64,000 nucleotides of DNA from Byssovorax sp. (GTDB taxonomy: Bacteria; Myxococcota_A; Polyangia; Polyangiales; Polyangiaceae): contig JANYGI010000087.1 of assembly GCA_025362495.1 (NCBI GenBank), positions 1 through 64,000 on the forward strand, read 5' to 3'. The notes beneath the pieces are model-generated. The model did no database searches. It was not told the DNA's origin and saw only the letters and a program-made list of their open reading frames with translations. A program made the translations under genes and the position numbers. Every line of letters begins with the position of its first letter. The first letter of the stretch is position 1. Positions 49,859 through 55,995 of the stretch are shown piece by piece.

Positions 49859-50695
49859 ATGTGCGAGCTGCTCGGGATGGAGTGCAACGTCCCCACCGAC
49901 ATCGTGTTTTCGTTCAGCGGCCTGCGTCAGCGCGGCGGCAAGACCGGTCCCCACGCCGACGGCTGGGGCCTCGCGTTCTACGAGGGCCGCGCGACGCGCG
50001 TCTTCCTCGATCCCACGCCCGCGTGTCAGAGCCCGCTCGCGCGCTTCCTCGGTGAGAACCCGATCAAGACGCTGCTCGCCGTCGGCCACATTCGTCGGCG
50101 CACGCGCGGACCGACGACGCTCGCGAACACCCACCCGTTCGTGCGCGAGCTCTGGGGAAGGCACTGGGTCTTCGCGCACAACGGCACGCTCCCGCGCGTC
50201 CGCCGCCACAAGCTCGGGCGCTTCGATCCGATCGGCACGACCGACAGCGAGCACGCGTTCTGCGTGCTCCTCGAGGGCCTGCGCAAGCGCTTCCCCGCCT
50301 ACCCGACGCGCCGTCGCGAGCTGTGGTCCGCGGTCGCGGAGATCGGCGCCCAGCTCGGCGACGACGGCACGTTCAACTTCCTCCTCGGCGACGGGCGGCA
50401 CCTCTTCGCGCGCTGCGCGACCAAGCTCAGCCACATCATCCGCAAGGCGCCGTTCGGCCTCGCGGCGCTCGCCGACGACGACGTGCGGATCGACTTCTCG
50501 ACGGTGACGACGCCGAACGATCGCGTCGCCGTGATCGCGACCTGCCCGCTGACGACGAACGAGGCCTGGACGGTTGGCAAGCCCGGCGAGCTCTGGGTGT
50601 TCGAGAAGGGCACGCTCCGCGCGACGCTTCCGTCCAAGACGGACACAATTCGCGCGTCCCGAAGGGTCATTCAGCGCTCGCGGAAGCAAAGATGA
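49859..50695 (+). CDS. class II glutamine amidotransferase (YafJ/EgtC-like)
   Basis: 278 aa starting MC, with Cys2 as the N-terminal nucleophile once the Met is removed. HADGWGLAFYEG, GHIRRRTRG (Arg of the glutamine site), NTHPF and HNGTL are the conserved Ntn-hydrolase blocks. Such stand-alone GATase domains occur in ergothioneine synthesis and in uncharacterised hydrolases; no ergothioneine genes are nearby. It lies 72 bases downstream of hemY. Its stop opens the sRNA-bearing intergenic region. Confidence 0.9.
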   Translation: MCELLGMECNVPTDIVFSFSGLRQRGGKTGPHADGWGLAFYEGRATRVFLDPTPACQSPLARFLGENPIKTLLAVGHIRRRTRGPTTLANTHPFVRELWGRHWVFAHNGTLPRVRRHKLGRFDPIGTTDSEHAFCVLLEGLRKRFPAYPTRRRELWSAVAEIGAQLGDDGTFNFLLGDGRHLFARCATKLSHIIRKAPFGLAALADDDVRIDFSTVTTPNDRVAVIATCPLTTNEAWTVGKPGELWVFEKGTLRATLPSKTDTIRASRRVIQRSRKQR

Positions 50696-50770
50696 AGGCT
50701 GCTCCCGACGGCAATTGCACGGCTGAAATCTAGACGATCGCCAACATCTCGATGCGTGGCTGATTCGAGC

Positions 50771-50786
50771 TGGCACGACAGCTGCA
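50771..50786 (+). promoter_or_regulatory. sigma-54 (-24/-12) promoter of the first small-RNA cassette
   Basis: TGGCACGACAGCTGCA has the invariant GG and GC exactly ten bases apart and matches TGGCAC-N5-TTGC except for one base (CTGC). Counting 12 bases from the GC puts transcription start near 50797, immediately before the hairpin. A dedicated activator of the NtrC type would be needed; none is encoded in the window. Confidence 0.8.
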
Positions 50787-50796
50787 TTGTCTGGAG

Positions 50797-50850
50797 ACGC
50801 GCCGCGACGGAGACCTTCCCCCCCAGGTCCGTTGCGGCGCTTTTCTTTTG
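50797..50850 (+). ncRNA. sigma-54-driven C7-loop hairpin RNA, copy 1 (Pxr-like)
   Basis: From the predicted start, almost the whole transcript folds: a 12-bp stem (50799-50810 with 50829-50840), an AG bulge, four more pairs, and an eight-base loop of T plus seven C. TTTTCTTTT follows, so the RNA may be about 50 nt and ends as an intrinsic terminator. Twenty-nine bases (50804-50832) are identical to copy 2. The Myxococcus xanthus Pxr sRNA has a sigma-54 promoter and a functionally crucial run of seven cytosines in a loop, which is the nearest known parallel. A C-rich loop could pair with ribosome-binding sites. Homology to Pxr is inferred from features, not alignment. Confidence 0.75.
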
Positions 50851-51123
50851 TCCTCGCGCCCGCCCGGCGGTGGATGCTCGCGAGTGCGACAGTCCTGCCA
50901 ACCGCGATGGGCGCCTGAGGCGATGCTGCGACCCGCCTCGCGCCGGTGTTGCGAGCCACCAGCGCGGCGTTTCACGCGCGGAAATCGACGCCGCTTCGCG
51001 CGAAAGCACGCTCCATCGCCGGCCTCCGGCGGCGTGAATCAGAAGCGACGCGACAGATTCACCGTTGAAATCGGTAACTTCCGTGATGCGGGCCAACCCC
51101 ATGGAATCGTTGAGGGTAACACT
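50851..51123. other. spacer between the two sRNA cassettes with short palindromes
   Basis: No open frame with coding character is seen. It contains TTTC-N7-GAAA at 50970-50984, the 10-bp palindrome TTCGCGCGAA at 50995-51004, and CGCCGG-CCT-CCGGCG at 51017-51031. These lie 94-155 bp upstream of the second -24 element, the usual position of enhancer-binding protein sites, so they are candidate activator sites. No repeat or IS sequence is recognised. Confidence 0.35.
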
Positions 51124-51139
51124 TGGCACGCTGTCTGCT
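51124..51139 (+). promoter_or_regulatory. sigma-54 (-24/-12) promoter of the second small-RNA cassette
   Basis: TGGCACGCTGTCTGCT keeps the GG-N10-GC spacing and the same CTGC -12 element as the first promoter, 353 bp downstream of it. Predicted start is near 51150, four bases before the hairpin. Confidence 0.8.
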
Positions 51140-51149
51140 ACCTCTTTCA

Positions 51150-51212
51150 TCGAGCGTTGCGACGGAGACCTTCCCCCCCAGGTCCGTCGTGACGCTTTTT
51201 TCATTTTCCGGC
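51150..51212 (+). ncRNA. sigma-54-driven C7-loop hairpin RNA, copy 2 (Pxr-like)
   Basis: Same architecture as copy 1: 12-bp stem (51154-51165 with 51184-51195), AG bulge, four pairs, loop of T plus seven C, then TTTTTTCATTTT. The outer stem differs from copy 1 by compensatory changes: C-G at 50802/50837 becomes T-A at 51157/51192, and GT wobble replaces or is replaced by Watson-Crick pairs at two places. So structure is conserved beyond sequence. Identity is 29 bases across the loop and inner stem, 51159-51187. It lies about 270 bases before the diguanylate cyclase start and might also be read as a terminator for anything upstream, but the promoter makes an sRNA likelier. Confidence 0.75.
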
Positions 51213-51478: not shown

Positions 51479-52381
51479 GTGAACGACTTCGACGAAAAGA
51501 CACGTGTGACACAGGTGGTTCAGCCACCTCCGGGCTCGGGCGGCCCGCGCGCGACCACCGACTGCCTCGTGGTCATCTACACGAAGGAGCCGACGCTGCT
51601 CGGCAAGCGCTTCGTGCTCGAGCACAACTCCACGCGCGTGGGGCGCGGCGCCGACAACCACATCGTCCTCGATGGCGACTCGGTCTCGCGCCGGCACGCC
51701 CACTTCGAGCAGCGCGCCGCCGCGTGGCTCGTCGTCGACCTCGGCAGCACCAACGGCACCTACTGCAACGACGAGCAGATCTCGCGCGAGGTGGTGCTCA
51801 AGAACGGTGACCGCGTGAAGATCGGCCCCACGATCTTCAAGTTCCTCTCGGGCGCCGACGTCGAGGCGCAGTACCACGAAGAGATCTACCGGATGACCAT
51901 CATGGATGGTCTCACCCAGATCCACAACAAGCGGTACCTGTACGAGGCGCTCGACCGCGAGATCATCCGCAGCCGCCGCCACGAGCGCGATCTGTCGATC
52001 CTGATGTTCGACATCGATCACTTCAAGCGCATCAACGACGTGCACGGCCACCTGGCGGGCGACTTCGTGCTGAAGGAGCTCGCGCGCGTGGTTCAGGCGC
52101 GCATCCGCCGCGACGAGGTCTTCGCGCGCTACGGCGGCGAAGAGTTCTCGATCATCCTCCCGGAGACGTCGCTCGACGGCGCGGCGGCGCTCGCCGAGAC
52201 GCTCCGCCAGAAGGTCTCCGAGCACCTCTTCGTGTTCCAGGCCGACTCGATCCGCGTGACGATCAGCGTGGGCGCGGCGCTGCTGCAAGAGCCCGATCGC
52301 GGCGCGACCGATCTCATCAAGCGCGCCGACGAGAAGCTCTACGCGGCGAAGAACTCCGGCCGAAACCGGGTCTGCCACTAG
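51479..52381 (+). CDS. FHA domain diguanylate cyclase
   Basis: 300 aa from a GTG at 51479. An FHA domain (about residues 25-120; VGRGADNHIVLDGDSVSRRHAHFE and DLGSTNGTYCND) would bind phosphothreonine, linking it to Ser/Thr kinases. The GGDEF domain (about 140-300) has DGLTQIHNKRYLYEAL, FDIDHFKRINDVHGH and the catalytic ARYGGEEF, so c-di-GMP synthesis is expected. The allosteric I-site position reads RRDE rather than RxxD, so feedback control may be changed. It is cytosolic with no transmembrane segments. The aminotransferase gene lies 50 bases downstream. Confidence 0.92.
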   Translation: MNDFDEKTRVTQVVQPPPGSGGPRATTDCLVVIYTKEPTLLGKRFVLEHNSTRVGRGADNHIVLDGDSVSRRHAHFEQRAAAWLVVDLGSTNGTYCNDEQISREVVLKNGDRVKIGPTIFKFLSGADVEAQYHEEIYRMTIMDGLTQIHNKRYLYEALDREIIRSRRHERDLSILMFDIDHFKRINDVHGHLAGDFVLKELARVVQARIRRDEVFARYGGEEFSIILPETSLDGAAALAETLRQKVSEHLFVFQADSIRVTISVGAALLQEPDRGATDLIKRADEKLYAAKNSGRNRVCH

Positions 52382-52431: not shown

Positions 52432-53787
52432 ATGGCTCTCAGCGAGATCCCGCTCCCCTCGGCGGACGCCACCGGCGACGACCCGCCCGAGATCCGCATC
52501 GACCCGCCGGGGCCGATGTCCCGCGCCGCCGTGACCCGCCTCGAGCAGGTCGAGTGCCCCGCCTTCGGGCACCGACGCGACGCGCGCGCGGCCGTGAGCG
52601 GCGCCGACATGCTCCCGATCGTGCTCGCGTCGGGGCGCGGATCGAACCTCTACGACGTCGACGGTAACCGCTACGTCGACCTCGTGGCGGGCTTCGGCTC
52701 GCTCTTGCTCGGCCACGCGTACTCGTCGGTGCTGCGCGCGATCGAGGGGCAATCGACCCGCCTCATCCAGGCCCTCGGCGACGTGTACTCGGCCGACGCC
52801 AAGCTCGCGCTGCTCGAGCGCGTGGCCTCGCTCCACCCCGGCGTGCGCCCGCGCGTGCTGCTCGGGCAGAGCGGCAGCGACGCGGTCACGGCGGCGATCA
52901 AGACCGCGGCGCTCTTCACTGGCAAGCCCGGCCTCGTGGCGTTCGAGGGCGCCTACCACGGGCTCGGCTACGCGCCGCTCCCGGCGTGCGGCCTGCGCGA
53001 GAGCTACCGCGCGCCCTTCCGCGAGCAGCTCAACCCCCACGTCAGCTTCGCGCCCTACGCCCGCACCGAGGCCGACGTCGATCGCGCCCTCGGCGGAGTC
53101 GCAACCGCGTTGCAAAAAGGGAACGTCGGCGCCGTGCTGATCGAGCCGGTCCTCGGCCGCGGCGGGTGCGTCGTGCCTCCCGACGCGTTCCTCACGGGCG
53201 TCTCCGAGCTGGCCGCGAAGCATGGCGCTCTGGTGATCGCCGACGAGATCTGGACCGCGCTCGGCCGCACCGGTTCGATGGTGCGCAGCACGACCGTCGG
53301 CGCCCACGTCGACATCCTCTGCTTCGGCAAGGGCCTCGGCGGCGGCCTCGCGCTCTCGGCGTGCGTCGCGCCCGACGAGATCATGTCGGCCTGGGCTCGC
53401 GCCGACGAGGTCGTCCACACCTCGACCCACGCGGGCTCGCCGCTCGCGTGCGCCGCGGCGATCGCCACCCTCGACGCGCTCCGCTTCCGCCGCTTGGTGA
53501 TCCGCGCCCGCGAGATCGGGCCTTCGATCCTCGATCATTTCCGGAGCGAGCTCGGCGGCCTGCGTGACGTCGTCGAGGTGCGCGGCGTCGGCCTGATGAT
53601 CGGGATCGAGCTCGCGAGCGGCGCCGTCGGGCTGCGCGTCAGCCGCGACATGCTCGCGCGCGGCTACATCGTCCTCACGGGCGGCACGAAGGGCGAGGTC
53701 CTCACGCTCACGCCGGCCCTCAACATCAGCGAGGATCGCCTCCGCGACGCGGCGGCCGCGCTGCGCGAGATCCTCTCGGCGCCGTGA
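52432..53787 (+). CDS. class III PLP-dependent aminotransferase
   Basis: 451 aa. A fold-type I enzyme with GNRYVDLVAGFGSLLLGHAY, GQSGSDAVTAAIKTAA, EGAYHGLGY, VIADEIWTALGRTG (Asp pairing with the pyridine nitrogen) and the Schiff-base lysine K300 in CFGKGLGGGLALS. Class III members move an amino group between an omega-amine or amino acid and a keto acid or aldehyde. The N-terminal 55 residues are an unconserved extension. It precedes the LuxE- and LuxC-like genes by 22 bases; the aldehyde expected from LuxC would suit this aminotransferase. Confidence 0.92.
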   Translation: MALSEIPLPSADATGDDPPEIRIDPPGPMSRAAVTRLEQVECPAFGHRRDARAAVSGADMLPIVLASGRGSNLYDVDGNRYVDLVAGFGSLLLGHAYSSVLRAIEGQSTRLIQALGDVYSADAKLALLERVASLHPGVRPRVLLGQSGSDAVTAAIKTAALFTGKPGLVAFEGAYHGLGYAPLPACGLRESYRAPFREQLNPHVSFAPYARTEADVDRALGGVATALQKGNVGAVLIEPVLGRGGCVVPPDAFLTGVSELAAKHGALVIADEIWTALGRTGSMVRSTTVGAHVDILCFGKGLGGGLALSACVAPDEIMSAWARADEVVHTSTHAGSPLACAAAIATLDALRFRRLVIRAREIGPSILDHFRSELGGLRDVVEVRGVGLMIGIELASGAVGLRVSRDMLARGYIVLTGGTKGEVLTLTPALNISEDRLRDAAAALREILSAP

Positions 53788-53809
53788 TTTTGCGTCAGCC
53801 GTTTCTGCC

Positions 53810-54949
53810 GTGAAATTGTTCTCCTCGCTCGACAGCGACGCGCTCCACGCCCGGGTGCAGTCGTTCCTTCGCGCGGCGATCGTCGATCCCGCGCGCACGC
53901 CCGAGGGCTTCGACGTCATCGCCGTCGACCTCGCTCGACACCAGGCGGCGCACATCCCGGCGGTGGCGCGGCTGGCCCGCGCGCGCGGGATCGATCTCGC
54001 GACGGCGACGCGCGCGGCCGAGGTGCCCGCGGTGCCGTGCGACGTCTTCCGGCTCACGCGCGTCGCGACGCATCCGGTCGAGGACGACGTCGCGGTGTTT
54101 CGCACCAGCGGGACGTCGCAGGGGCGCGAGGCCCGCGGCGAGCACGCGCTGCGCACCACGGCGACGTACGAGCTCGGCGCGCGCCTCTGGGCCGAGCGGC
54201 TCCTGTGGCCGGACACGACGCGGCTCCGCGCGATCGTCCTCGCTTCGCCGCTGGCAGAGCAGCCGGATTCGTCGCTCGGGTTCATGCTCGATCGCTTCGC
54301 GACCCTGCTCGGCGGCGGCAGCTTTCACCTGCGATCGGGCGCGCTCGACGCGGCCGGCGTCGCTGCTGCTACGGCGGCGGCGCGCGACGCGGACGAGCCC
54401 GCGCTGGTGCTCGCCACGTCGTTCGCGCTGGTCCACCTGCTCGACGCGCAGAGCGGGCTCGATCTCCGCCTGCCGCCAGGCAGCCGCGTGATGCAGACGG
54501 GCGGCTTCAAGGGCCGCTCGCGCGAGGTCGCGCCCGACGAGCTGCGCGCCGCCGTGAGCGCGGCGTTCGCGGTGCCCGAGGTGCAGGTGATCGGCGAGTA
54601 CGGGATGACCGAGCTCTCGAGCCAGCTCTACGAGACGACGCTCGCCGCGGCGCTCGGCAAATGGCCTGCAAATGAAGCGCGACACGGGGTCTACGCGGCG
54701 CCCCCGTGGGTGCGGGTGACGGCCGTCGATCCGATCACGCTGGCGGCGCTGCCCGACGGCGAGATCGGGATCGCGCGCCTCGTCGATCTCGCCAACGTCG
54801 ACTCCGCCGTGGCGATCCAGACGGCCGATCGGGTGCGCGTTCTCCAGGGCGCGACTGGCAATCACGCGATCGAGCTGCTCGGCCGCGCGCCCGGGGCGCC
54901 GCCGCGCGGATGCTCGATCGCCGTCGACGACATGCTGGGGCCGCCGTGA
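53810..54949 (+). CDS. LuxE-type acyl-protein synthetase/acyl-AMP-forming ligase
   Basis: 379 aa from a GTG at 53810. The nucleotide-binding FRTSGTSQGREARG is the AMP-forming motif, and QTGGFKGRSREVAPDEL plus IGEYGMTELSSQLYE are the later adenylation blocks as in LuxE/PaaK relatives. In fatty acid reductases the LuxE subunit activates an acid and passes the acyl group to the LuxC reductase. The stop overlaps the LuxC-like start as GTGA, so the pair is certainly co-translated. Acyl chain and purpose are unknown. Confidence 0.87.
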   Translation: MKLFSSLDSDALHARVQSFLRAAIVDPARTPEGFDVIAVDLARHQAAHIPAVARLARARGIDLATATRAAEVPAVPCDVFRLTRVATHPVEDDVAVFRTSGTSQGREARGEHALRTTATYELGARLWAERLLWPDTTRLRAIVLASPLAEQPDSSLGFMLDRFATLLGGGSFHLRSGALDAAGVAAATAAARDADEPALVLATSFALVHLLDAQSGLDLRLPPGSRVMQTGGFKGRSREVAPDELRAAVSAAFAVPEVQVIGEYGMTELSSQLYETTLAAALGKWPANEARHGVYAAPPWVRVTAVDPITLAALPDGEIGIARLVDLANVDSAVAIQTADRVRVLQGATGNHAIELLGRAPGAPPRGCSIAVDDMLGPP

Positions 54950-55995
54950 GCTCGGACGAGGCGAGGGCGCGTCGCGTGGAGCGCGCGGTGGCCCTCGGCG
55001 CGCGGCTCGCCGATCGCGACGATCCCCTTGGGAAAGAGGCCCGCCGCGATCTGGTGCTCACCAGCGGGCTCTCGCGCGAAGGCGTCGAGCTGGCGCTGAC
55101 CGAGCACCTCGAGAGCGCGATCAGCAGCGACGATATGGCGTCATTACTCGCTGCCGTGAAAACCGCGCCGCGCTGTCACGTGATCCTCGCGGCCAACGTG
55201 GGCACCGCGGCGCTGCGGGCGATCGCGCTCGCGCTCGCGGCGTCGAGCGAGGTGACGATCCGACCGTCGCGGCGCGATCCGGGGCTCGCGCCGATCCTCG
55301 CGCGCGAGCTCGGGATCGCCGTCGCCGGGGAGCTCACGGCCGCTCCCGGCGACGCGCTCCACGTCTACGGATCCGACGCGACGATCGCCGAGGTGCGCGC
55401 GGCGGCGGCGCCCGGCGTGATCGTGACCGGCCACGGGACCGGCCTCGGTGTCGCCGTCATCAGCGCGGGCGTCGATCTCCGGGAGGCCGCCCGGGCGCTC
55501 GCCGCCGATGTGATCCCGTTCGATCAGCGGGGCTGCCTCTCGCCGCGGGTGGCCGTCGTCGAGGGCGACGCCGATCGCGCGGCCGCGTTCGCCGCGGCGC
55601 TGGACGCGGCCCTGCGCGACCTCGGCGAGGTCGTCCCACGCGGAGGTCTCGACGAGGCCACGCGCGCGGCGATCGCCCTCTACGGCGCGGCGATCGACGC
55701 CGTGGGCGAGCGCTTCGCCGGGCCGCAGCACGTGGTGGGGCTCGATCCTGCGCCGCGCGCGCTCCAGCTCCCACCGCCAGCGCGCGTGGTCCACGTCGTC
55801 CCGGCGCGAGCGGTCGACGCGGCGCGGCTGCTCGGGCCGTGGGCGCGCTTCATCACGACCGTGGGCTCCGCGGGCGCGGGCGCGCTGCTCGACGCGGCCC
55901 TCGCGCTCGCGCCCGAGGCTCGCCCCGCGGCGCTCGGGCGGATGCAGCGCCCGGCGCTCGACGGGCCGGTCGATCGCCGCGGCCTCGGAAAATGA
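54946..55995 (+). CDS. LuxC-type acyl-CoA/acyl-protein reductase
   Basis: 349 aa from a GTG at 54946. LuxC-family fold with FDQRGCLSPR holding the probable catalytic cysteine C197, preceded by VILAANVGTAALRAIALALAASSEVTIRPSRRD and VTGHGTGLGVAVI for cofactor binding. It should reduce an activated acyl group to an aldehyde with NADPH. Shorter than luminous-bacteria LuxC (about 480 aa), the N-terminal domain being reduced. Coupled to the LuxE-like gene and near the aminotransferase, with only 13 bases between its stop and the convergent lipoprotein gene. Confidence 0.85.
   Translation: MSSDEARARRVERAVALGARLADRDDPLGKEARRDLVLTSGLSREGVELALTEHLESAISSDDMASLLAAVKTAPRCHVILAANVGTAALRAIALALAASSEVTIRPSRRDPGLAPILARELGIAVAGELTAAPGDALHVYGSDATIAEVRAAAAPGVIVTGHGTGLGVAVISAGVDLREAARALAADVIPFDQRGCLSPRVAVVEGDADRAAAFAAALDAALRDLGEVVPRGGLDEATRAAIALYGAAIDAVGERFAGPQHVVGLDPAPRALQLPPPARVVHVVPARAVDAARLLGPWARFITTVGSAGAGALLDAALALAPEARPAALGRMQRPALDGPVDRRGLGK

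Follow-up and report, generated by a model that had tools for sequence, protein, structure and literature searches.

Tandem genes predicted for minimal C-loop small RNAs in Polyangiales and a sigma-54 control system most likely shared with Pxr

In the window, the whole stretch of 64,000 nucleotides of Byssovorax sp. DNA under analysis, two similar cassettes lie between a glutamine amidotransferase gene and an FHA-GGDEF gene (Table 1). Each presents, from 5' to 3', a palindromic site, a -24/-12 element, a gap of about 12-13 nt, a bulged hairpin with a U+C7 loop and a T-rich stretch. The original prediction had placed two cassettes 353 bp apart, and this is the distance between the promoter starts. 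Its TGGCACG-type promoters with GG-N10-GC spacing and its loop of T plus seven C followed by a T-tract were read directly in both copies, and the 29 identical loop-proximal bases, GCGACGGAGACCTTCCCCCCCAGGTCCGT, are exact in both cassettes. The outer stem varies as described; as to the compensatory changes claimed for it, one double change (C-G to T-A) was found, the others being one-sided and pairing-preserving. A third copy on another contig of the same genome (G000:C218:146460-146518) was matched by the covariance model described below; its loop region, GAGACCTACCCCCCCAGGT, is similar, and it has an enhancer-like site with 9/10 positions as well as a sigma-54-like element. Past the FHA-GGDEF gene, positions 52432-55995 hold a class-III aminotransferase gene, then LuxE-like and LuxC-like (acyl-CoA reductase) genes.

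Table 1. Features of the two cassettes, their flanking genes and the regulator gene on another contig
Feature	Position	Strand	Remarks
Glutamine amidotransferase gene	49859-50695		flanks the cassette pair
Enhancer-like site, cassette A	50715..50728	+	TTGCAcggcTGAAA = TTGCA-cggc-TGAAA, palindromic, 10/10 positions
Sigma-54 (-24/-12) promoter, cassette A	50771..50786	+	TGGCACGACAGCTGCA, GG-N10-GC
C7-loop hairpin, cassette A	50799..50840	+	predicted body of a ~50-55 nt sRNA; 62.4 bits against model R1
Apical loop U+C7, cassette A	50817..50824 (C7 = 50818-50824)	+	predicted pairing site
T-rich tail (terminator), cassette A	50841..50849	+	from the sequence
Enhancer-like site, cassette B	51057..51070	+	ATTCAccgtTGAAA = ATTCA-ccgt-TGAAA, palindromic, 9/10 positions
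Sigma-54 promoter, cassette B	51124..51139	+	TGGCACGCTGTCTGCT, GG-N10-GC
C7-loop hairpin, cassette B	about 51152..51197	+	58.4 bits against model R1
Apical loop U+C7, cassette B	51172..51179 (C7 = 51173-51179)	+	from the fold
T-rich tail, cassette B	51198..51207	+	from the sequence
FHA-GGDEF gene	51479-52381	same strand as cassettes	downstream neighbour
PxrR orthologue, this genome	G000:C112:4885-6237		on another contig than the window; NtrC-family response regulator

Both loops are closed by CCU/AGG, and a GA bulge is located on the 5' side of each stem. The fold energies were -29.4 kcal/mol for cassette A and -26.8 kcal/mol for cassette B (z = -5.2 and -5.6), no shuffled sequence being equally stable. 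A simple terminator scan, restricted to loops of at most 8 nt and excluding bulges, called neither of the window hairpins. The predicted transcript is one hairpin of ~50-55 nt that starts at the predicted +1 and would also act as terminator; it is paired throughout except for the C-loop, a small bulge and the U-tail. With one hairpin acting at once as entire RNA, pairing site and terminator, the family would, if the prediction holds, add a design to those of bacterial sRNAs.

The covariance model R1 was built from 30 sequences of the hairpin alone, excluding the promoter; its E-values are rough. All 12 modelled pairs had a compensatory change in the alignment, and the covariation score of 0.746 compares with 0.255 in shuffles and at most 0.176 with the pairing partner slid. 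The C-run is nearly invariant within a freely varying stem. R1 matches occurred in 85 of 144 Polyangiales genomes and in 59 of 69 genomes of the window's taxonomic family, with up to 10 copies; two complete Sorangium genomes had 12 and 10 copies, the 12 being those of Sorangium cellulosum So ce26, and Minicystis rosea had five. The word twin, apt for the window, is thus too small for a family reaching 12 copies per genome. In a phylum sample at E 1e-4 the matches were confined to Polyangiales with the exception of one weak, borderline match. A pattern of sigma-54 element plus C7 was present in 77 of these 144 Polyangiales genomes, frequently as tandem arrays, and this pattern with a T-tract, sought in one genome per species (~85,000 species), yielded 101 stretches; among the 80 of these that were listed, many belonged to Sorangium, Minicystis and Polyangiaceae MAGs, and many folded as C-loop hairpins. 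In one genome, nine tandem C-loop units, mostly ~385 bp apart, form an array (L065, G130:C1:9574000-9577700) in which several units are nearly identical and the C-runs comprise 8 to 11 bases. At gathering score, Rfam detected only a tRNA in the window; in eight relatives no family matched at E 0.1. We regard the units as a real and widespread family of putative minimal C-loop sRNA genes, of the Pxr kind but not Pxr. An earlier account of this family was not found in the open-access literature and may exist elsewhere.

Since R1 contains no promoter, its matches give a separate test of the promoter. Of the 83 matches used, a few were already in the sigma-54 plus C7 pattern set and most lay outside it; this promoter-blind set had 97 % paired cells and a covariation score of 0.779. 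In 67 of the 83, a sigma-54 element (9 or more of 11 matches) stood at the fixed distance, with its GC 9-13 nt from the hairpin, compared with 0.56 % of random windows from the same loci. A hairpin restricted to this genome and lacking a conserved promoter had been named as the outcome that would speak against the original prediction; the opposite was observed. On visual inspection, most of the remaining 16 had a TTGCA(A/C) hexamer and, after a spacing of 17 bases, a second, TA-rich hexamer with TGC in front of it, which we read as a sigma-70-like extended -10 promoter with a putative +1 again near the hairpin foot (L203, L204, L206, L214, L241-L243, L250, L256, L267, L281, L283, L288, L289). 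That the RNA start is kept although the promoter class changes argues for the hairpin as the transcript. Four sigma-70-like members (L203, L204, L214, L241) have kept a 10/10 enhancer-like site. Altogether about one sixth of the promoter-blind units lacked a sigma-54 promoter and most of those also the enhancer-like site, hence the RNA seems able to exist outside the regulon.

Related genomes are not independent, and the upstream regions were filtered for similarity. Palindromes were sought in 134 non-redundant upstream regions, and TTCA-N4-TGAA and TGCA-N4-TGCA stood out far above the shuffled controls. Of these regions, 76 % contained the combined site TTKCA-N4-TGMAA with no more than one of its 10 positions deviating, compared with 0.8 % of random windows and 1.5 % downstream. 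The spacer between the half-sites was four in 36 regions and any other length in at most three each; exact sites mostly begin 60-105 bp upstream of the TGG. Outside the R1 family, the site also accompanies C-loop hairpins with other stems (L099, L119, L127, L132, L139, L153, L159, L169, L180, L187, L188, L198, L199), several of them from more distant delta-proteobacterial or Myxococcota MAGs, so that the regulon may extend past Polyangiales and Myxococcaceae. C-run units of the TTAAGGTACCCACATCCCCCCC type from Syntrophobacterales-like MAGs were left out; in most of them neither the enhancer-like site nor a strong hairpin is present. A separate sigma-54-preceded element, TTAAGGTACCCACATCCCCCCCTTAATC, occurs in Syntrophobacterales-like MAGs (L143, L152, L156, L160, L161, L173), sometimes in tandem ~315 bp apart, with a weak hairpin and mostly no enhancer-like site.

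The candidate activator is PxrR, which is essential for the synthesis of Pxr in Myxococcus xanthus (PMC10217877). A protein search with PxrR revealed an orthologue in 18 of 20 hand-picked genomes, including the present one. The orthologues scored 451-776 bits, all other matches at most 389 bits; those of Polyangiales shared 50-56 % identity, and paralogues stayed at or below 50 % and at least 60 bits lower. The orthologues form one clade (100/99 support) with a common recognition helix, (T/A)TLWR(K/R)M, unlike that of the paralogues. The two searched members of the window's taxonomic family without R1 matches (G020, G032) had PxrR matches at paralogue level only. In G012 and G004 an orthologue was present and an R1 match absent; each contains a site-bearing C-loop unit of another stem type, that of G004 without a clear T-tract. 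In G012 a C7 hairpin, with promoter and enhancer-like site, lies directly behind pxrR. The gene order in G389 is selB, a GAF-HisKA kinase gene and pxrR; the enhancer-like site, a sigma-54 promoter and a C-loop RNA of one hairpin plus T-tract come next, as in M. xanthus apart from the shorter RNA. In Polyangiales a CheY-like single-domain response regulator gene follows the pxrR orthologue, then queA and tgt (L375:6445-6834, L376:8351, L377:8302-8682); in Sorangium So ce26 this CheY-like gene has its own enhancer-like site and a sigma-54-like element.

Pxr prevents too early fruiting body building in Myxococcus and is a model for sRNA gating of multicellular development. The literature treats it as an innovation that arose recently in the Cystobacterineae (PMC5684412, PMC5568312). 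We located Pxr in Myxococcaceae genomes via the ancestral-allele primers printed in PMC5568312; there it has a TGGCACG...CTGCTA promoter and up to five tandem copies ~290-330 bp apart. The resemblance to the Pxr of M. xanthus, where the regulators PxrK/PxrR are SpdS/SpdR, is manifold: a sigma-54 promoter, TGGCACG...CTGC(T/A), directly upstream; the enhancer-like site TTKCA-N4-TGMAA, with 10/10 positions in all 40 Pxr promoters examined (at -87 to -103) and 10/10 and 9/10 in the window; a hairpin beginning near +1 with a 5'-side bulge, a 3-bp inner helix and a U+C7 loop; the identical decamer UUCCCCCCCA; in some lineages tandem copies about 300-390 bp apart; and the orthologous activator in the genome. 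The seven-cytosine loops read GGU[UCCCCCCC]ACC in the 5' hairpin of Pxr and CCU[UCCCCCCC]AGG in the window. Pxr comprises ~108 nt in three stem-loops with a separate terminator, SL3, and is processed from a longer form, whereas the window RNA is one predicted hairpin with the T-tract directly behind it, without SL2 and without SL3 and its conserved 8-bp segment. The stem sequences are unrelated. Pxr occupies a single locus, flanked by pxrR and NADH dehydrogenase genes, with one to five copies in tandem; the C-loop family is dispersed (two plus one copies in this genome, 10 and 12 in the two Sorangium), and the window units have other neighbours, the pxr-type location being partly found only for the C-loop RNAs behind pxrR in G389 and G012. 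R1 did not match SL1 of Pxr, its best Pxr matches being SL3-type terminators at ~17 bits, and the 64-nt 3' part of Pxr had no match in this genome and chance matches only in the phylum sample. The likeness to Pxr proposed at the outset is borne out for loop, promoter class and control site, whereas identity with Pxr is contradicted by the missing SL2/SL3, the other locus and the blindness of R1 to SL1.

With R1 blind to SL1, the RNA bodies are tied by architecture, control sites and synteny rather than by alignable sequence, and a common descent of the RNAs has to be argued from position, control sites and architecture. An independent origin of the Polyangiales RNAs and Pxr, with separate recruitment by the same ancient PxrR, would account for RNA bodies that are unalignable outside the loop, and C-loop RNAs have arisen independently elsewhere (6C/B11, sX13). 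We consider such a convergence a real but minor chance: it would have to produce the same enhancer-like site, promoter class, hairpin near +1, 5'-side bulge, 3-bp inner helix and decamer, and it leaves aside the single-hairpin C-loop RNAs right behind pxrR in G012 and, within the selB-kinase-pxrR context, in G389. For the control system, the data speak for an older common origin: most likely Pxr shares it, and it is older than the literature states. The older-origin option of the original prediction is largely supported by the common site, the PxrR orthologues with the same helix and the C-loop RNAs behind pxrR in two other lineages. From the latter we infer an older state with a single C-loop hairpin behind pxrR, to which SL2 and SL3 of Pxr were added later. 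It is on the whole probable that PxrR/SpdR and sigma-54-driven C-loop RNAs make up one ancient system, in place before Myxococcaceae and Polyangiales diverged; in this view the ancestral RNA, a single C7 terminator hairpin behind pxrR, was multiplied and scattered in Polyangiales and enlarged into Pxr in Cystobacterineae. The developmental gatekeeper would then be a late specialisation of an older system. Should regulator, site, promoter class and C-loop prove common to Polyangiales, Sorangium and Minicystis can serve for the study of the system, and the family would offer a very small sRNA design in bacteria without Hfq, with its exact site and regulator given.

For the cassettes themselves we favour, with a probability of about 0.78, tandem minimal sRNA genes that are activated by the PxrR orthologue and sigma-54 and whose C-loop masks G-rich ribosome-binding regions in trans. 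Bound to TTKCA-N4-TGMAA ~55-65 bp upstream of the -24 box, the PxrR orthologue would activate the sigma-54 RNA polymerase. Transcription would start at the hairpin foot and end in the unit's own T-tract, releasing a bulged hairpin with U-tail in which the U+C7 loop is held open. The loop may then pair in trans, free of Hfq, with G-runs at the ribosome-binding regions of mRNAs and lower their translation, and scattered and tandem copies would raise the dose of one common effector. Sequence comparison shows the family, its structure, the promoter class, the enhancer-like site also found at Pxr and the orthology of the regulator; transcription, binding of PxrR, base pairing, targets and a part in deciding between growth and development are predictions. 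Hfq was absent in 20 of 20 relatives, and the same search detected it in control genomes. B11 pairs with G-tracts that flank ribosome-binding sites by way of its C-rich terminator loop (PMC12395582), the C-rich loops of sX13 act on G-rich motifs without need of Hfq (PMC3771888), and a C-to-A change in the SL1 loop of Pxr abolishes its function (PMC5684412). Together with loop, bulge and tail as sole unpaired parts and the absence of Hfq, these precedents make masking of G-rich translation starts without Hfq our preferred reading. Runs of G located 4-10 nt before ATG were about twice as frequent as in the reversed control whether or not a genome contains the family, so that the target idea gains no support from the genome-wide count.

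The many C-loops could instead act as protein-binding decoys of the CsrB or CrcZ kind, titrating a poly-C-binding protein rather than pairing with mRNAs. High copy numbers, as in the two Sorangium strains, and a near-invariant C-run within a freely varying stem would suit such a function, for which the sigma-54-dependent multi-copy decoy RNAs CrcZ and CrcY are a precedent, and the loss of Pxr function by one loop base fits either decoy or pairing. Each RNA, however, has one C-run where decoys usually carry many sites, and the studied C-loop RNAs found in the literature work by base pairing; we therefore hold titration to be unlikely. A leader or attenuator that controls read-through into the downstream gene is suggested by the same-strand FHA-GGDEF gene of the window, but the next gene lay on the same strand in 64 and on the opposite strand in 55 of 119 units, and neighbours were not shared beyond close relatives. 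With the next gene so often opposite, the units are not leaders; this reading, now very improbable, was dropped for want of a strand bias. Most units, 144 of 165 different ones, fell between genes as predicted by a crude gene caller. A common neighbour gene was sought as well: hemE is nearby in the window genome and two other genera, and apart from this synteny none was common beyond close relatives. Ordinary intrinsic terminators of upstream genes, with C-rich loops and promoter matches by chance, would likewise combine hairpin and T-tract, and the upstream gene was on the same strand in 76 of the 119 units. In the other 43 it was on the opposite strand, and neither the enhancer-like site upstream nor the promoter frequency at fixed distance in the promoter-blind matches, far above the random windows, is expected of terminators, an explanation that can practically be dismissed.

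Besides Pxr, three kinds of known sRNA come closest to the family. Mycobacterial 6C/B11 resembles it in the C-rich loop of a Rho-independent terminator and the chaperone-free binding of G-tracts by ribosome-binding sites; it is a longer actinobacterial RNA with several C-rich loops and no sigma-54 control, and the 6C Rfam model matched neither the window (gathering score) nor the eight relatives (E 0.1). The sX13 RNA of Xanthomonas is likewise structured and Hfq-independent, with C-rich loops acting on G-rich motifs near translation starts, but has 115 nt, three stems and C4/C5 loops and is not a sigma-54 multi-copy family. The Qrr RNAs of Vibrio depend on Hfq and have another structure, in contrast to the single C-loop hairpin in a host without Hfq. 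They share with the family several copies per genome, sigma-54, an NtrC-family activator, LuxO, and the half-sites TTGCA/TGCAA; the LuxO site of the qrr genes is TTGCA-W3-TGCAA (PMC11443567), with a spacer of three instead of four.
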